Shown here piece after piece: positions 1,799 through 58,384 of a stretch of DNA of 64,000 nt. Origin of the DNA: an uncultured Clostridia bacterium. Its GTDB lineage: Bacteria > Bacillota > Clostridia > Oscillospirales > Acutalibacteraceae. A model generated the notes under the pieces. The model was not told the origin of the DNA and ran no database searches. It saw nothing but the letters and a program-made list of their open reading frames with translations. A program made the translations under genes and the position numbers. Position 1 is the stretch's first letter. Each line of letters opens with the position of its first letter. Where the stretch lies: the NCBI GenBank assembly GCA_946500295.1, contig CAMMVF010000012.1:1-64000 (forward strand), read 5' to 3'.

Positions 1799-1829
1799 TA
1801 AACACTGTTTAATAAACGAACACCGTTTA
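1799..1829 (+). promoter_or_regulatory. Candidate TetR operators: two adjacent inverted repeats
   Basis: TAAACA-C-TGTTTA (1799-1811) and TAAACG-AACAC-CGTTTA (1813-1829), directly upstream of the TetR gene. Confidence 0.55.
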
Positions 1830-1835
1830 ATTATT

Positions 1836-2441
1836 ATGATTATTATGAAGGGAGCAAGCGCTTTGGGGCGTGAAAGACAGATACAAAAAAACAACGAAAC
1901 CAGAAAAGCTATAATAGACGCCGCTGTTTCTATCGGCCTTGAAGAGGGATTTGACGAGCTTTCAATCCGCAAGATAACCGACAGGCTCGGCTATTCCGCA
2001 GGGATAGTCTATCATTATTTTAAAGATAAGCAGGAAATACTCGACATTATTCATAATCAAACCAGCCTTGAACTCAAGGATGCAGTTGAGGCTTGCATTA
2101 GCCCCGAACGCAGCTTTGAAGAAAATACAAAGGTAGTTTTTAAGATGGTCTGTGAGATGATGAAGTGCAACCCCGACACATTCAAACTTATATTGGTTAA
2201 CAGAGGCTCTCGCAGCAGTGAGTCGATTGACCTGTGGCTCGACATGGTAAAACGGTGCATCGACATGGGTATAGAAAGCGGCGAACTAAGAGATGTTGAC
2301 AGTGAGATAACCGCTCACACCCTGCTAAACACAATTTTGGTGGCCCATATGATAATAAGCGACAGGAAAACCGAAAAGTCAAAAATCGAGGATATATTTA
2401 ACACTGAGCTTGATATAATTTTGCATGGGATATTAAAATAA
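1836..2441 (+). CDS. TetR/AcrR family transcriptional regulator
   Basis: N-terminal HTH: RKAIIDAAVSIGLEEGFDELSIRKITDRLGYSAGIVYHYFKDKQEIL. Start may be 1845. Confidence 0.92.
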   Translation: MIIMKGASALGRERQIQKNNETRKAIIDAAVSIGLEEGFDELSIRKITDRLGYSAGIVYHYFKDKQEILDIIHNQTSLELKDAVEACISPERSFEENTKVVFKMVCEMMKCNPDTFKLILVNRGSRSSESIDLWLDMVKRCIDMGIESGELRDVDSEITAHTLLNTILVAHMIISDRKTEKSKIEDIFNTELDIILHGILK

Positions 2442-2465
2442 TTTATTTTAGTAGGAGGAATTTAT

Positions 2466-3425
2466 ATGCCCTGGTATTTGATTGTCATTTTAATAATTCT
2501 GGGAGTGGTAATATTGTCGGTAATATTTTGGCATCTATTAGCTAGATACTTTTTCAATAAAACTATCCTGCGAAAAGAAAACCAGATTACAATCGAGGAA
2601 GCCGACAAAATGATGGGCACCCACTGGGGTCAGTTTACCGAGCTTATGAGCGAAAGGAAAAAATGGTTTGACGCTCAGAGCTTTGAGACCGTATCTATAC
2701 AATCTGACGATGGCTTAAAGCTTGTCGGTCACTACCTTGAAAGCGACCCAAGCTCCAAAAAAATAGTAATTGCCTTTCACGGATACTCGAGTAAGGGAAT
2801 GAGCGACCACTGCGCCACCGCAAACCTGTATTACAGGCTTGGAATAAATACGTTGATAGTCGATGAGAGAGCACACGGAGAAAGCGAGGGAAAGTACGTA
2901 GGCTTCGGAGTTTTGGACAGATATGACGCTTTGAAGTGGATTGAATATGTAATTAACCGCTTTGGCAGCGACTGCACAATCATTCTTCACGGAATTTCAA
3001 TGGGCGGCGCTACCGTATTGATGACTGCAGGACTTAATCCGCCGAAGAACGTCAAGGCTATTATCGCAGACTGCGCCTTCACCTCTGCATATGACGTATT
3101 TTCCCACGTTCTTAAAACTTGGTATCACATACCGAGCGGCCCTATTTTGAAAATCACAGAGAAAATGGGGCGCAAGGAGGCAGGCTACGGCTATAAGGAC
3201 TGCTCAACACTTGACGCAGTAGCTAAAACCGACATTCCGATTTTATTTATCCACGGCGGCAAGGATACCTTTGTTCCCACATGGATGAGCAGAGAAAACT
3301 ACAAGGCGTGCGCCTCACCGAAAGAGCTTGTAATTGTTGAAAACGCCGCCCACGGCGAGAGCTTCTTTATGGACAATGCTAAATGTGAAAAAGCGATTTC
3401 AGACTTTATCGGCAAATACTGCTGA
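2466..3425 (+). CDS. Membrane-anchored alpha/beta hydrolase
   Basis: N-terminal TM segment; nucleophile elbow GISMGG; late Asp/His in GGKDTFVP..NAAHGES. Confidence 0.88.
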   Translation: MPWYLIVILIILGVVILSVIFWHLLARYFFNKTILRKENQITIEEADKMMGTHWGQFTELMSERKKWFDAQSFETVSIQSDDGLKLVGHYLESDPSSKKIVIAFHGYSSKGMSDHCATANLYYRLGINTLIVDERAHGESEGKYVGFGVLDRYDALKWIEYVINRFGSDCTIILHGISMGGATVLMTAGLNPPKNVKAIIADCAFTSAYDVFSHVLKTWYHIPSGPILKITEKMGRKEAGYGYKDCSTLDAVAKTDIPILFIHGGKDTFVPTWMSRENYKACASPKELVIVENAAHGESFFMDNAKCEKAISDFIGKYC

Positions 3426-3475
3426 TGAAGGTTTTGAATACATAAAAACCAAGTAAATTAAAAGGAGATTTTAAA

Positions 3476-4855
3476 ATGTCGGTAAAGTACTATCCAATCA
3501 CAAACGCACAGAAAATTCACTTCTTCACCCAGACTGTTTGCCCCAAAAAACAGCTTCTCAACATTGGCGTAAGCGTAACCATTGAGCTTGATGTTGACTT
3601 TGATGCATTGAAGCAGTCAATTTACGAGGCTTATGACAGAAACGAATCTATGAGAATCCGCTTTCACCTCACCAAAGACAACGAGACGGTTCAGTACATA
3701 GCACCCAAAGAAGATAGGGATATCCAATACTTTGACTTCAGACATTGGAAGGAGGAGGACGCCGCTGACGAAATGCGCCGCTGGACAGAGATTCCCTTTG
3801 AGCGCTATGACTCGCCAATGAACAAAATTGTAATGATAGATATGCCGCAGGGCTACAAAGGTCTTTACTTTCTTGTTGACCATATGACCGCCGACGCTCA
3901 GTCGCTGATTGTCTTTCTTGAGGATATCATCAGAATCTACTGTGCAAAAAAATATGACGAGGAATATCCGAAGCCGCTTAAATCCTATGTTGAGCAGCTC
4001 AAGAAGGATTTGGAGTATGAAAACAACTCAAAGCAGCTTTTAAGGGACAGAGAGGCCTGGACGAACGAAATCAAAAATTCCGAACCGATTTATGCGGATA
4101 TCTTTGGAAATCATGCTCTGCAAAGGGAAAGATTCACAAAGAATAATCCTAAGCTCAGAGCTGCAACCAGCGTGACAACGGACGTCACCGCAGGCATCAA
4201 AACCTTCCATCTCGAGGCTGACGCTTCAAAGCGGCTTATGGACTTCTGCGCTGAATATCATGTTCCGCCGGTTTGCCTTTTGCTGATGGGACTTAGAACC
4301 TATATTTCAAAGGTGAACAACAAGCAGTCTGACATTTCAATTCAGTCCACCATTTCCCGCCGTGCAACCCTGCTTGAGAAAAAATCCGGCGGCACAAGAA
4401 TCCACTTCTTCCCCTGCCGCACCATTGTAAACACCGAGGACTCCTTCCTCGACGGACTTGAGAAAATGCGTGAGGCTCAGAACAAAAACTTCAGACATTC
4501 AAACTTCAATCCGCTTGAGGTCTTTGCTATCAGACAGAAAATTTACAATCTTGAGCCGGGTCAGGGATACGAGCCGCTGTCGCTTACATATCAGCCATTG
4601 TCAAGAAAGAGCGAGGATATGCCGGATGTAAGGTACAAGTCAAACTGGTATTCAAACGGCGTAGCAGCTCAGGCTTTATACCTCACGGTTATGCACCGCC
4701 CCGAGGACGACGGGCTTGACTTCGATTTTGAGTATCAGAAGATCAAGGTTACTCCCGACCAGCTGGAGCTTATATACTACTATCTGTGCAAGATTATGTT
4801 CTACGGAATTGAGCATCCCTACGCTTCAGTCGGCGAGATTATTGACGCAGTTTAA
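3476..4855 (+). CDS. Stand-alone condensation-domain-like acyltransferase
   Basis: NRPS C-domain/CoA-dependent acyltransferase-like layout; LVDHMTADAQS corresponds to HHxxxDG with the second His and the Asp retained. Confidence 0.75.
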   Translation: MSVKYYPITNAQKIHFFTQTVCPKKQLLNIGVSVTIELDVDFDALKQSIYEAYDRNESMRIRFHLTKDNETVQYIAPKEDRDIQYFDFRHWKEEDAADEMRRWTEIPFERYDSPMNKIVMIDMPQGYKGLYFLVDHMTADAQSLIVFLEDIIRIYCAKKYDEEYPKPLKSYVEQLKKDLEYENNSKQLLRDREAWTNEIKNSEPIYADIFGNHALQRERFTKNNPKLRAATSVTTDVTAGIKTFHLEADASKRLMDFCAEYHVPPVCLLLMGLRTYISKVNNKQSDISIQSTISRRATLLEKKSGGTRIHFFPCRTIVNTEDSFLDGLEKMREAQNKNFRHSNFNPLEVFAIRQKIYNLEPGQGYEPLSLTYQPLSRKSEDMPDVRYKSNWYSNGVAAQALYLTVMHRPEDDGLDFDFEYQKIKVTPDQLELIYYYLCKIMFYGIEHPYASVGEIIDAV

Positions 4856-4905
4856 TTTTACTTGTAAAGCAGTCTTAAAATAAATATTACAGAGGAGATA
4901 TTAAA

Positions 4906-5142
4906 ATGACATTGGATATAAAATCTTTTACAGACATTATGGCAGAGTATGTTGACCTTGACGGGAAGGAGGTAAGTGAGGATTCTCGCTTTATTGAGGA
5001 TCTTGGCTTCAACTCCTACGACTTCATGAGCCTGCTCGGAGAACTTGAGGATAAATACGACGTTGAGGTTGACGAGCGTGAGGTAACTAAATTCCGTACC
5101 GTCGGCGAGGCAATGGAGTACATAAACTCTCTCGGTGAATAA
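4906..5142 (+). CDS. Acyl/peptidyl carrier protein
   Basis: 78 aa; phosphopantetheine-site-like DLGFNSYDFMSLLGELEDKYDVEV. Confidence 0.88.
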   Translation: MTLDIKSFTDIMAEYVDLDGKEVSEDSRFIEDLGFNSYDFMSLLGELEDKYDVEVDEREVTKFRTVGEAMEYINSLGE

Positions 5143-5152
5143 GGAGGATAAA

Positions 5153-6706
5153 ATGGATACAAGTATGATTCGTCCCACCAAGCGCTACGAAAACCTCAAG
5201 GAGCTTGTGGCTGACGCCGCCCGCAAATACGGTGATTGCGATGCTTACCGCTACAAGAAAAACAAGGAGATTGTCAGCAAAACCTACAACGATTTGCTCG
5301 CTGATACTCAGGCGTTTTCACGTGCTTTAGACGCCATGGGACTGCTCGGCAAGCACATTGCCGTGGTCGGAGCGTCAAGCTACGAGTGGATAGTAACCTA
5401 CTTTGGCACAGTCAACAGCGGCGGTGTCATAGTCCCCATTGACAAGGAGCTGGGCGGAGACGACATTGCAGAGCTGTTAAATCGCGCCGATGTAGAGGCT
5501 GTAGTATATGACACTCTGCTCTATGACAGAATCGAGCGCATCAGGGAGCTGTGCCCGAACATTCGTTTCTTTATTGATTCCACGCTTGAGCTCGACGGCG
5601 AAAACGCCCTGTCCTTTGAAAAACTCATTGAAGCAAACCGAGGAAGCTTTGACACGGAGATTGACAGAGAAAAAATGTGCGCCATTCTATTTACCTCGGG
5701 TACTACAGGCAAGAGCAAGGGCGTAATGCTCACTCATAAAAGTCTGACCGACAACGCCACCTGTATGGATATGGAAGAGCCCGAGGGTTCAATAATGCTT
5801 TCCGTCCTCCCCATCCACCACGCCTACTGCTTTACCTGCGATATCCTTGCAGGAATGTGCACGGGAGCCGTAGTTTGCTTTAACGATTCCATCATGCGTC
5901 TTGCAAAAAATATCGGCATCTTTAAGCCGAATATTGTTTTGCTTGTACCGATGATAATCGAGTCTGTTTTTTACAAGCTTCAGGAGGCGGCTAAGGCTTA
6001 TCCGGATGTACCGAAGCCGATGCTTGCAAAGAAGATATTCGGGGAAAATCTACGCACAATATACAGCGGCGGAGCTTACTTAAACCCGAAGCTGGTAGTC
6101 GCTTTTGACGAGTTTGGAATTGAGCTTATTCAAGGCTACGGAATGACGGAATTTTCTCCTCGAATCAGCGCCAATATGCGCCGTTGCAGCAAGCTCGGCT
6201 CTGTAGGAATACTCATTCCGGGTTGCGAAGCTAAGGTAGTAGAAGGCGAGCTGTGCGTAAGAGGCGACAGCATGATGCTCGGTTACTACAAAGACGAAAA
6301 GACTACAAACGAAACCATAATAGACGGCTGGCTTCACACCGGCGATTTGGCTTATGTTGACGAGGATAACTTCGTATTCATCACAGGCAGAAAGAAAAAC
6401 CTGATTATCCTCGCAAATGGCGAGAATGTATCTCCCGAGGAGCTTGAAAACAAGTTCAGCGGCTGGCTTCCGGCAAAGGAACTTATGGTTTACTCCGATG
6501 AGGGAAAGATAGTTTTAGAGGTTTATCCAAACTCTGAAGTACTCGCCGCCATGAATATTACCGATTTTAAGAGCGTTGCCGAGCAAAAGGTTGCTGAAAT
6601 AAACAGTGATCTACCCCTTTACAAACAGATTCATCATGTTATAATCAGGGAGGAAGAGTTTGAAAAAACCTCTTCGAGAAAAATCAAACGCAGAAATAAC
6701 ACCTGA
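5153..6706 (+). CDS. AMP-dependent acyl ligase/synthetase (adenylate-forming)
   Basis: P-loop LFTSGTTGKSKGVMLTH, GYGMTE, GWLHTGDLAYVDEDNF, C-terminal KTSSRKIKR. RBS AAGGAGG precedes ATG at 5153. Confidence 0.93.
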   Translation: MDTSMIRPTKRYENLKELVADAARKYGDCDAYRYKKNKEIVSKTYNDLLADTQAFSRALDAMGLLGKHIAVVGASSYEWIVTYFGTVNSGGVIVPIDKELGGDDIAELLNRADVEAVVYDTLLYDRIERIRELCPNIRFFIDSTLELDGENALSFEKLIEANRGSFDTEIDREKMCAILFTSGTTGKSKGVMLTHKSLTDNATCMDMEEPEGSIMLSVLPIHHAYCFTCDILAGMCTGAVVCFNDSIMRLAKNIGIFKPNIVLLVPMIIESVFYKLQEAAKAYPDVPKPMLAKKIFGENLRTIYSGGAYLNPKLVVAFDEFGIELIQGYGMTEFSPRISANMRRCSKLGSVGILIPGCEAKVVEGELCVRGDSMMLGYYKDEKTTNETIIDGWLHTGDLAYVDEDNFVFITGRKKNLIILANGENVSPEELENKFSGWLPAKELMVYSDEGKIVLEVYPNSEVLAAMNITDFKSVAEQKVAEINSDLPLYKQIHHVIIREEEFEKTSSRKIKRRNNT

Positions 6707-6718
6707 GGAGGAACGTGT

Positions 6719-7045
6719 ATGACATTTCAAGAAGCTTTTGCCGAGGTAAAGGAAATTATTTCAAAGGCTGACGTGAGCAAGTACAACGGAGGGCATATAG
6801 CCTTTCAGGTAAATCTGAGAGGAGAGGGCGAGGGCGCTTTCTATGTAGAGCTTGACAACGGATTTGTAGATGTTCAGCCCTACGAATATTACGACAGAGA
6901 CGTTATATTCACCGTAGGAACTAAGGATTTTCTGAAGATTATGAAGGGCAAGCTCGACCCGGTGCTGGCTTTTACAATAGGAAAGCTGAAAGTTGACGGA
7001 GACATCGGCAAGGCTCTTGAAATTCAAAAGCTGATTAAGAGCTGA
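6719..7045 (+). CDS. SCP2 sterol-binding domain-like protein
   Basis: 108 aa; ..FYVELDNGFVDVQPYEYYDRDVIFTVGTKDFLKIMKGKLDPVLAFTIGKLKVDGDIGKALEIQKLI. Confidence 0.85.
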   Translation: MTFQEAFAEVKEIISKADVSKYNGGHIAFQVNLRGEGEGAFYVELDNGFVDVQPYEYYDRDVIFTVGTKDFLKIMKGKLDPVLAFTIGKLKVDGDIGKALEIQKLIKS

Positions 7046-7060
7046 GTTTATTTAAGACAG

Positions 7061-7099
7061 AACAGGCTGTATCGCAATGTGTGATACAGCCTGTTTTAT
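7061..7099 (+). terminator. Operon terminator
   Basis: AACAGGCTGTATC..GATACAGCCTGTTTTAT. Confidence 0.85.
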
Positions 7100-7153
7100 A
7101 TTGAAATATCTATTTGAACTCATGCAGAACTTACACAGAATTTCTGATATATA

Positions 7154-8180: not shown

Positions 8181-8597
8181 TCAGAGCAGCTTGCTGTAGC
8201 TCATGAGCTCATCGGGAAGCTCGGAAGCGTCAGCCGAAATCAGAAGAGTGATCTTTGTTTCAGCCTTTTCTGCAAGGCTGCTGAGCATTTTTACGAGCTG
8301 GCTCAGCTTTGAGAAATCCTTGCCGCAGATTTTGAAGGTTGAATCAACAAAGATATCAGTTACGTCGTAGTTACCTGCACAAATTCCGCAGACAAAGCCG
8401 TAGAGAACATCATAGCCCTGTACGCCGTACTGGTCTGTATCAATAAGTCTGGCCTTGTGTGTAACGTCGAAGGTAAGCTTAGCGCCCTTTTCAATTACTA
8501 CAACATTGCCGGAGGAGGTAGCAACCGCCTCGTTGGCCAGAGAAATTAACTTTTTGGTTTTTCCTGTACCTTTTTTTCCTATAAGTAAAGTTACCAT
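8181..8597 (-). CDS. P-loop (Walker A) protein of unknown function
   Basis: MVTLLIGKKGTGKTKKL Walker A; 138 aa. Confidence 0.75.
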   Translation of the reverse strand: MVTLLIGKKGTGKTKKLISLANEAVATSSGNVVVIEKGAKLTFDVTHKARLIDTDQYGVQGYDVLYGFVCGICAGNYDVTDIFVDSTFKICGKDFSKLSQLVKMLSSLAEKAETKITLLISADASELPDELMSYSKLL

Positions 8598-8647
8598 GGG
8601 ATTTGCCTCCTTATATATTACCGCTGTGCGGTTAATTCCTTATTTAA

Positions 8648-9982
8648 TTAAAGTCTTGCCTCAAGAGCTTCCTTCTGCTCCTCATAGCCAGGTTTTCCGA
8701 GCAGAGCGAACATATTCTTCTTGTAGCTCTCAACTCCGGGCTGGTTGAACGGGTTAACACCGAGGAGATATCCGCTGATAGCGCATGCCTTCTCAAAGAA
8801 GTAGATAAGATAACCGAGCTCAGCTTCGTCCATTCTCTCAGCAGTAAGTACAACATTCGGTACTCCACCGTCATTATGAGCGAGCACTGTTCCCTGGAAA
8901 GCCTTTTTGTTTACATAGTCAACAGTCTTTCCTGAAAGGAAGTTGAGACCGTCAACATTCTCGGGGTCTGTGCCGATAGTGATAGTTCTCTTAGGCTCGT
9001 TGAAGAGGACAACCGTCTCAAACAGAGATCTTCTGCCGTCCTGGATGTACTGACCCATTGAGTGCAGGTCAGTTGAGAAGGTAACAGACGCTGGGAATAT
9101 TCCCTTGTTGTCCTTGCCCTCACTCTCACCGAAGAGTTGCTTATACCACTCGCTCATCATGGTGAAGGCGGGCTCATAGCTCACCAAAATTTCTGTGGTG
9201 TAACCCTTTGCATAGAGGATATTTCTGATTGCAGCGTACTTGTAGCAATCGTTTGTGCTGAGGTCATCATTATCAAAATCAGACTGAGCTTTTGCAGCGC
9301 CAGCCATGAGTGCGTCGATATCCGCACCTGAAACTGCAATCGGAAGAAGTCCTACGGCTGTTAACACTGAAAAGCGTCCGCCTACGTCGTCAGGTACTAC
9401 GAAGGTTTCGTAACCCTCCTTATCGGCGAGTGCCTTCAGAGTGCCCTTTTCCTTATCGGTGGTGCAGAATATTCTCTCCTTTGCCCCGTCTTTACCGTAC
9501 TTGTTCTCGAGCAGTTCTCTGAACACACGGAAGGCGATCGCTGGCTCTGTGGTTGTACCTGATTTTGAAATCATATTTATAGATATGTCCTTACCCTCGC
9601 AGATGTCGATAAGCTCTGCAAGCGCTGTGGAACTGATGCTGTTACCGGTATAATAAATATCCGGTGTGTCCTTCTTCATCGCATTGTAGTTGGGCGACTT
9701 AATAAAATCTATTGCCGCTCTTGCACCAAGGTACGAGCCGCCGATGCCGATAACGATAAACACATCGGAATTTTTCTTGATTTTTTCAGCTGCTGCTTTA
9801 ATACGAGCGAATTCGTCTTTGTCATAATCACTCGGCAGAGTAAGCCAGCCGAGAAAATCATTACCAAGACCTGATTTATCATGTAGTGTTTTGTGAGCTG
9901 TTTTAACCTGTTCCTTTATTGCAACATACTCATCCTCGCTGACAAAAGCCTGAAGATGCTTGTCACTTAATTTAGTTGCCAT
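8648..9982 (-). CDS. pgi: Glucose-6-phosphate isomerase
   Basis: [50 protein letters not shown] upstream of ATG at 9982. Confidence 0.96.
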
Positions 9983-56254: not shown

Positions 56255-57262
56255 TTATGCTATTTGACTTAATCCGAACAAGGTTATCAGCACCGCAAAA
56301 ATCCCGCACACAGCTGTAGCAACGCTGAAAACCACAACAATTCTGACCTCTGACCAGCCGCACTTCTCGAAATGATGGTGAATGGGACTCATTTTGAAAA
56401 GCCGCTTACCATTGGTCAGTTTAAAGTATGTAACCTGTATGACTACAGATAGCATTTCAAGTATAAACGGAGCTGCCGCTACCAGCAGCAAAAGCGGAAG
56501 GTCGATTGAAAAAGCGAGCGAACAGAGATAACCTCCGAGGAAAAGAGAGCCGACATCTCCCATGACAACCTTTGCAGGGTGGAGATTCCACAGCAAAAAG
56601 CCCAAACAACCGCCTGCTAAAGCCGATGCTGCTATCCCCGTACACTGCGTCTTCATTATAGCTGCCAGCAGCATAAACGTGAGGCAGCAAAAAAATGACA
56701 TAGTTCCCACAAGTCCGTCTGTCCCGTCGCTAATACCTACTGCGTTGACGACAGCCACGATACCTATAGCTGAAAGTATCCAGTAAAAAACACCCAAATC
56801 GTAAATACCGAAATACGGAACAACTATGTTGCTGGTTACTCCTAATAAGTACAGAACTAAAAGATAAGCAGAGGCTACAAAAAATTGAAGAATAAGCTTG
56901 TGTTTAACTTTGAGCCCGTGCTCTCTTTTCTTTTTTACCTTTATATAATCATCGGCAAAGCCTATTCCACCAAAGGCGAGCGCCATTGCAAGACCTGCCA
57001 CTACCTTTAGAGTATCCTTGTCATAGCTTTCAAAATAAGAAAACAAAAACACGCACACTATTGAGGTTACAACACTGGCAAGTATAAATATCAGTCCGCC
57101 CATAGTCGGGATTCCCTGTTTGTTATGATGCCATGTAGAACCTTCCCCTTGAATTGTCTGTACGAAGCCGCGGCTTCTCAGCTTCGGCACGAGCCAGCGT
57201 CCGAAAAACGCCGATATTATAAACGAGGCCACTGCGCTGCCAAGCACCCAACCTGTATTCAT
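56255..57262 (-). CDS. mraY: MraY paralog 2 (divergent active-site motifs)
   Basis: GIPTMGGLIF, DDYIKVKKKREHGL, NAVGISDGTDG, PAKVVMGDVGSL, MSPIHHHFEKCGW. Confidence 0.9.
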   Translation of the reverse strand: MNTGWVLGSAVASFIISAFFGRWLVPKLRSRGFVQTIQGEGSTWHHNKQGIPTMGGLIFILASVVTSIVCVFLFSYFESYDKDTLKVVAGLAMALAFGGIGFADDYIKVKKKREHGLKVKHKLILQFFVASAYLLVLYLLGVTSNIVVPYFGIYDLGVFYWILSAIGIVAVVNAVGISDGTDGLVGTMSFFCCLTFMLLAAIMKTQCTGIAASALAGGCLGFLLWNLHPAKVVMGDVGSLFLGGYLCSLAFSIDLPLLLLVAAAPFILEMLSVVIQVTYFKLTNGKRLFKMSPIHHHFEKCGWSEVRIVVVFSVATAVCGIFAVLITLFGLSQIA

Positions 57263-57320: not shown

Positions 57321-58343
57321 TTATACAAATGTAATTCCAAATCCGAATATAACAATTAAAACCGAAGCAATGGCGCAAATCCCGGTAAATAAGCCGAACA
57401 CTATTACTATCTTTACCTCTGACCAGCCGCACATCTCGAAGTGGTGGTGAATTGGGCTCATTTTAAACAGGCGCTTACCGTGGGTCAGCTTAAAGTAGGT
57501 CACCTGAAGTACAACTGAGAGCATTTCAATAAGATAAGGCAGAGCTATCAAGATCAAAATAATCGGTTTGTTCATTGCATAAGCGAGCGCACAAATATAA
57601 CCTCCGAGATAAAGTGAGCCTGTGTCGCCCATGAACACCTTGGCAGGGTGGAAATTCCAAATTAAAAAACCTAAACAGCCACCCGCCAATGCAGATGCCA
57701 TGATACCGCTGCACTGCATTTGCAAAACCGAGGACAAAAGCATAAATCCGAGTGCAACGAAAAATGACTCAGAACCGACCAGTCCGTCAATTCCATCGGA
57801 AAGATTCACTGCGTTTACAACACCGACAATAGCGATGGCCGAGAGTATCCAATAAAAGACTCCCAGGTCAAAACCGCCGATAAACGGAATCTCTATGACG
57901 CTGCTGCCACCGAGAATATAAAGAGTAAGAAGATATGCGGCCGCTATGGCAAATTGAAGCACAAGCTTTTGCTTGGCAGTGAGTCCCAGGTTTCTCTTCT
58001 TGACAACCTTAATATAATCGTCAATAAATCCTACAGCTCCATATGCCACAGCCATAAAAACTCCTGCTATTACTCTGCCCATGTCGCCGAGCGCAGTCGG
58101 ACTGCCTCCTGCCGTGAGATAGAATAAAATGACACAGATAAGAGTAGTGACTACCGAACCCAAAATGAACATGAACCCGCCCATAGTCGGCGTACCCTGC
58201 TTTTTTTCATGCCACTTGGGACCATCCTCAAGTATCGTCTGACCGAAGTGAACCTTTTTCAGAAAAGGAACAAGCCACTTTCCAAATAAGGCTGCTATCG
58301 CAAAGGAAGCCACCGCGCTTCCGAGTACCCATCCTACATTCAT
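57321..58343 (-). CDS. mraY: Phospho-N-acetylmuramoyl-pentapeptide transferase (canonical copy)
   Basis: GTPTMGGFMF, DDYIKVVKKRNLGLTAKQK, NAVNLSDGIDG, PAKVFMGDTGSL, MSPIHHHFEMCGW. Confidence 0.96.
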   Translation of the reverse strand: MNVGWVLGSAVASFAIAALFGKWLVPFLKKVHFGQTILEDGPKWHEKKQGTPTMGGFMFILGSVVTTLICVILFYLTAGGSPTALGDMGRVIAGVFMAVAYGAVGFIDDYIKVVKKRNLGLTAKQKLVLQFAIAAAYLLTLYILGGSSVIEIPFIGGFDLGVFYWILSAIAIVGVVNAVNLSDGIDGLVGSESFFVALGFMLLSSVLQMQCSGIMASALAGGCLGFLIWNFHPAKVFMGDTGSLYLGGYICALAYAMNKPIILILIALPYLIEMLSVVLQVTYFKLTHGKRLFKMSPIHHHFEMCGWSEVKIVIVFGLFTGICAIASVLIVIFGFGITFV

Positions 58344-58384
58344 CTTTTGTACCTCCATACTTTTAATTTCAAGTAATATTAATC

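Follow-up and report, generated by a model that had tools for sequence, protein, structure and literature searches.

Organization of the operon

The window analyzed here is a stretch of 64,000 nucleotides from an uncultured Clostridia bacterium (contig CAMMVF010000012.1, positions 1 to 64,000), and the system under study is an operon of six closely packed open reading frames (ORFs) that lie on its + strand and are followed by a single strong hairpin 3′ of the last gene. In order of transcription, the ORFs encode a TetR-family repressor (1863-2441; PF00440, 6.5e-12), a membrane-anchored alpha/beta serine hydrolase of 319 amino acids (2466-3425; PF12146, 3.8e-16), a stand-alone condensation (C) protein of 459 amino acids of the fatty-acid-amide (FAA) type harboring the motif DHMTADA (3476-4855; PF00668, 6.7e-36), an acyl carrier protein (ACP) of 78 amino acids with a modifiable Ser37 in the context DLGFNS (4906-5142; PF00550, 2.7e-11), an adenylate-forming acyl ligase of 517 amino acids expected to load a fatty acid onto the ACP (5153-6706; PF00501, 1e-62), and an SCP2-like lipid carrier of 108 amino acids (6719-7045; PF02036, 2.3e-15). 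From TetR to SCP2, the intergenic gaps measure 24, 50, 50, 10 and 12 nt. All six Pfam matches are above the curated cut-off, upholding the gene identities given in a preliminary description of this DNA. The hairpin (39 nt, 7059-7097, + strand) is intrinsic-terminator-like; it was found by folding, the surrounding region (7046-7110) yielding -29.2 kcal/mol with a z of -8.0 relative to shuffles, and a simple terminator scan made no call at this position. The earlier view of the locus as six co-directional, tightly spaced genes ending at one terminator was thus borne out.

The gene coordinates proposed earlier also stood, except for two start codons. The TetR ORF opens at 1836, but TTG 1863 is more likely than ATG 1836 to be the start, because most relatives of the repressor begin with M/L/V-(G/S)-R-(E/D)-R-Q; the sequence AAGGGAG is found ahead of this TTG, at 1846-1852. 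With translation starting at 1863, the leader would therefore hold both a promoter and an operator on the + strand. The predicted sigma-70-type promoter (TTGACA-N17-TATTAT, 1754-1782) is the top-scoring promoter-like site of the region with 11 of 12 matches, and is a consensus match only. The predicted TetR operator (1798-1830) is a tandem of two 15-bp palindromes of the type TTRAACNNNGTTYAA, at 1798-1812 and 1816-1830. As to the ligase, ATG 5153, located 10 nt past the ACP stop codon, is better placed than GTG 5135.

The condensation protein and its carrier and ligase partners

The PF00668 match of the C protein spans residues 5-448 and thus covers a full condensation domain, so that the identification of the 3476-4855 product as a C domain, on which the preliminary description had made its proposal depend, holds. 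Its best relative of solved structure is OaaC of Coprococcus eutactus (12kh_A, 8.9e-114, residues 3-458), with which it shares about 39-40% identity, the second-best solved structure being far behind at 8.9e-07. OaaC has been characterized biochemically and structurally as an FAA synthase that joins an acyl-ACP to a small free amine to yield an amide and is without activity on oleoyl-CoA (PMC13142362). The motif published for FAA synthases is (D/H)HxxxD with a final place mostly occupied by S or A, as opposed to HHxxxDG (PMC13142362), and the DHMTADA of the window protein conforms to the FAA pattern DHxxxDA. Of 91 hydrolase-type C proteins, 66 have A at the last position of the motif, 24 have S and none has G. 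In a rooted tree, the window protein and OaaC fall on the same side of a branch (100/100) that separates them from the C domains of nonribosomal peptide synthetases (NRPSs), with the OaaC lineage appearing as sister to the larger group of which the window protein is a member (branch supports 86/90 and 89/97).

A canonical NRPS combines a fused C/adenylation/peptidyl carrier protein (PCP) module with an acceptor PCP; here, three separate short proteins are found instead. The window C protein is, moreover, the only condensation domain of the genome, and an acceptor-PCP NRPS partner is therefore missing. No sign of plasmid carriage was seen in the plasmid collection searched, where the C protein retrieved weak NRPS matches alone (<25% identity).

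The other core proteins conform to the same pattern. The ACP matches TIGR00517 at 5.3e-17, just under the cut-off of that model, and its Ser37 is kept in 48 of 48 cassette ACPs. The closest NCBIfam model to the ligase is the long-chain-fatty-acid--CoA ligase PRK06187 (2.4e-73, likewise under cut-off), and its adenylation motif TSGTTG-S-KG is conserved among cassette ligases. The order C-ACP-ligase is retained in nearly all relatives. A phosphopantetheinyl transferase (PPTase) of about 210 residues, Sfp-like, is encoded elsewhere in the genome (contig C35, 8509-8802, L100; PF01648, 1.1e-14); it could convert the ACP to its holo form. It is the only PF01648 protein found there, and the PF01648 search of the genome detected no separate AcpS. 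Taken together, the similarity to OaaC, the motif, the tree, the C-ACP-ligase order, the conserved ACP and ligase motifs and the presence of a PPTase make it a well-supported assignment, on sequence grounds, that the operon belongs to the gut clostridial FAA, or 'CTA', kind. The preliminary description, which had cited reports of gut Clostridia clusters of adenylation, carrier and condensation proteins fusing fatty acids to amines, had therefore pointed to the right family, with OaaC as the nearest relative of the C protein.

Conservation of the cassette across Clostridia

Three samples of related loci were compared. A scan of named genomes with a four-sequence C alignment returned 80 related loci and is biased towards hydrolase-type C proteins; 84 well-flanked loci, in which C has 3 kb or more of sequence on either side, were pooled from all searches and are likewise a biased sample; and 391 Clostridia genomes, sampled evenly, were searched with a mixed profile, FAA-like C proteins being called at E <= 3.3e-95. 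In the 80-locus scan, the hydrolase gene was directly upstream of C wherever the contig reached that far, and SCP2 was present in most loci. The commonest order, seen in 45 of the 80, placed a divergent TetR ahead of SCP2-hydrolase-C-ACP-ligase; that of the window (TetR-hydrolase-C-ACP-ligase-SCP2) was found in six. Among the well-flanked loci, the hydrolase lay directly upstream of C in 71, while 53 cassettes included SCP2, 47 TetR and six a PPTase. In the even sample, 20 genomes encoded a stand-alone FAA-like C protein, adjoined by the hydrolase in 12 and accompanied in the cassette by SCP2 in two. The hydrolase was missing from OaaC-type loci (L151-L154) and from the lineage typified by L156. 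A further locus, L155, encodes a stand-alone FAA-type C protein (8435-9799) that has neither an ACP nor a ligase gene in its vicinity.

The co-occurrence of orthologs foreseen in the preliminary description was thus found, and the gene set is beyond chance since dozens of other Clostridia have it too. In a tree built from 52 C proteins, two changes were needed to explain the presence of the hydrolase, compared to 14.5 with shuffled labels, and both hydrolase and SCP2 recurred in differing gene orders. The two proteins therefore emerge as repeated companions of the pathway and not as accidental neighbors. The contrary reading, in which only C-ACP-ligase form a unit, is extremely improbable given these last two results, even though OaaC-type loci have C-ACP-ligase alone and SCP2 adjoins only two of the 12 hydrolase-type cassettes of the even sample.

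Operators and regulators

The two palindromes of the window operator are 18 bp apart, center to center. Their core, AACNNNGTT-N9-AACNNNGTT (1801-1827), is a perfect match and the sole perfect one in the 2.18-Mb genome, and the operator score of the window was reached by none of 200 shuffles. Orthologs of this TetR stand at the head of the cassettes L020-L027, and an 18-bp pair is the top-scoring pair in eight of nine window-type promoters, being weak in L020. The tandem site at 1798-1830 is thus likely, judging from its sequence and recurrence, to be the operator of the cassette TetR, which makes autoregulation at the repressor's own promoter a candidate mechanism. A 21-bp spacing was also tried and dropped for 18 bp, and the idea of a wider TetR regulon was discarded, as sites with one mismatch are no more numerous in the genome than in a reversed control.

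Loci with a divergent TetR have a different tandem palindrome, TTGACCNNNGGTCGAAAA, the core sites of which (GACCNNNGGTC) are perfect in 41 of 47 and two copies of which lie 44 bp apart in 35 loci; it is the likely operator of a second type of TetR. Pairs of TTGACCNNNGGTCGAAAA are located near the SCP2 start in L034, L037, L051-L053 and other divergent-TetR loci. The L156 cassette carries a MarR regulator. That different regulators attach to the same core suggests that inducible control is under selection. The operator, and the occurrence of the same core under other regulators, go beyond what the preliminary description contained. Free fatty acids are toxic to bacteria of the genus Blautia bearing CTA operons, and amines relieve this toxicity (PMC13060934), which makes induction by fat plausible. 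In the Clostridium cassettes L029, L030 and L032, a MerR gene is found at the head and a dedicated PPTase gene between those of the ACP and the ligase.

Proposed pathway and alternative readings

From the gene content, protein families, motifs, linkage, operator sequence and phylogeny observed directly, we infer a substrate, an amine, an inducer and roles for the hydrolase and SCP2 as follows. The operon is probably a TetR-controlled FAA ('CTA') operon specifying a lipid-inducible conjugation pathway. The ligase would use ATP to activate a long-chain fatty acid and load it onto the holo-ACP, from which the C protein would transfer the acyl chain to a freely diffusing small amine to form an N-acyl amine. 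TetR, bound to the tandem operator at the transcription start, would be released by a lipid or fatty-acyl ligand, such that an abundance of free fatty acids would turn the pathway on. The hydrolase, working on the inner side of the membrane, would most likely act as an esterase freeing acyl chains for the ligase, and SCP2 may ferry hydrophobic molecules, either substrate or product, between the membrane and the soluble enzymes.

Several observations weigh against this interpretation. Of 71 hydrolase-type cassettes, 18 lack SCP2, that of the nearest relative, L020, among them, and lone SCP2 genes exist elsewhere in Clostridia; SCP2 is thus not obligatory. OaaC-type operons function without either hydrolase or SCP2, and the hydrolase family is also widespread outside cassettes (99 of 391 Clostridia genomes). 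Further, the C protein shares only about 39-40% identity with OaaC and lies in a sister lineage, and its class of acceptor could therefore differ. That either the hydrolase or SCP2 might be exclusive to the cassette was considered and rejected on these distributions, and both proteins look recruited. The distinct subfamily with SCP2, hydrolase and TetR suggested in the preliminary description was upheld for the most part, with the reservation that many cassettes have no SCP2.

The candidate catalytic triad of the hydrolase (Ser178-Asp267-His296) is invariant in 33 of 33 members. Its AlphaFold model (predicted local distance difference test score, pLDDT, 94.2) displays one N-terminal helix (residues 3-33), which is followed by positive charges in 30 of 33 members, and the positive-inside rule suggests that the catalytic domain is cytoplasmic; a secreted dietary lipase is less likely for this reason. 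The best Foldseek match is the Pyrococcus esterase Pf2001, and the thioesterase DcsB and monoglyceride lipases are also among the neighbors. Rather than supplying fatty acids, the hydrolase could edit or recycle the amide product or mis-loaded acyl-ACP. We hold this to be a possible function, if not the favored one: its fixed place upstream of C, with a 4-nt overlap between the two genes in several loci, suggests coupling to the C step, and the proximity of DcsB and the apparently cytoplasmic catalytic domain are consistent with it; however, the nearest matches in both sequence and fold are esterases and monoglyceride lipases.

The acceptor could also be other than a small free amine, the product then being an O-acyl ester, an N-acyl amino acid or an acylated larger lipid. 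C domains are able to form esters, and the window C lineage is separate from OaaC, but such an acceptor is unlikely given that the closest characterized enzyme and the motif class use small free amines (PMC13142362).

SCP2 was modeled with the SCP2 fold (pLDDT 90.1), and its profile and Foldseek matches are SCP2 proteins, a fatty-acid-bound structure among them; it is the only PF02036 protein of the genome. A literature search for SCP2 together with fatty acid amides returned one relevant match, a study of Blautia hominis HA2291 in which the gene for the SCP2-like protein RS03310 was induced by cholesterol, the recombinant protein bound cholesterol and displayed low NAD+-dependent activity, and an association of the product with the condensation protein RS03300, encoded nearby, was predicted, the pair being read as a cholesterol-transforming pathway (PMC13029680). 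By extension, the SCP2 of the window would bind or oxidize cholesterol and the C protein modify sterols. Despite these data, we consider a sterol pathway very unlikely: C, ACP and ligase fit an FAA pathway, sterols are not the only ligands of SCP2 proteins, which also bind fatty acids (as in the solved fatty-acid-bound SCP2), many cassettes lack SCP2, and the reported activity of RS03310 is small and unusual for an SCP2 protein.

An FAA pathway as proposed would make hormone-like lipids from fatty acids and small amines, with a gene set that is complete and switch-controlled in the window. Human receptors, GPR119 for example, are activated by fatty-acid amides of bacterial origin (PMC13142362, PMC13060934). 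With its recurring partners and two predicted operator classes, the cassette offers testable handles on the pathway switch, the source of fatty acids and the release of the product.

Other features of the window

A clustered regularly interspaced short palindromic repeats (CRISPR) array occupies positions 1-720 and runs off the contig start. It consists of a 33-nt repeat (GTCGCACCTCGCATGAGGTGCGTGAGTAGAAAT) present 11 times with a period of 66-68 bp; one spacer sequence occurs twice, before copies 1 and 8, and the final repeat is degenerate. On the - strand, 56255-57262 and 57321-58358 encode adjacent MraY-like paralogs with closely similar N-termini, within a cell-wall/division cluster.

Comparison with known systems

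The pathway for oleoyl aminovaleric acid (OAA) is said to have been originally reported by Chang et al. 2021 (Nat Microbiol 6:792). Like this OaaA-OaaACP-OaaC pathway of Coprococcus eutactus (PMC13142362), the window operon has a stand-alone C protein with a (D/H)HxxxD(S/A) motif, an ACP and a ligase. It differs from it in the sister lineage to which its C protein, at about 39-40% identity to OaaC, belongs, and in having the hydrolase, SCP2 and TetR that the cassettes of the OaaC-type relatives L151-L154 lack. The chemistry is of a known kind; the extended, regulated cassette appears to be new as a variant, although the original OAA report may mention accessory genes.

The same three core genes make up the CTA acyl-amine operon of Blautia wexlerae and other Lachnospiraceae, which was described as three genes and, within the isolates studied, found only in Lachnospiraceae (PMC13060934). 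In contrast, the relatives retrieved here include Clostridium and Ruminococcus- or Oscillospiraceae-labelled genomes, extending the FAA pathway beyond Lachnospiraceae. Blautia-labelled loci (L049, L080, L083, L084 and L095) are of the SCP2-hydrolase-C-ACP-ligase form, and the positions of TetR and SCP2 differ between them and the window operon.

As regards the Blautia hominis proteins, RS03310 is two tags away from RS03300, leaving space for one gene as in the SCP2-hydrolase-C arrangement, and the pocket residues named for RS03310 are in register with cassette SCP2 proteins at up to six of 11 positions (L028, L033). From the tag spacing, the gene order in Blautia and the residue register, RS03310 is probably a cassette SCP2, and we suggest that this published cholesterol-binding protein merits re-examination as an FAA component. 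More tentatively, FAA synthesis in hydrolase-type Clostridia may rely on a larger inducible cassette and not on the three-gene CTA unit of the literature, in which a ligand-sensing TetR would induce the C-ACP-ligase core along with a membrane-tethered hydrolase and a lipid carrier dedicated to the pathway, the 'cholesterol' SCP2 of Blautia included, such that acyl chains of the membrane would be conjugated and moved on as amides.

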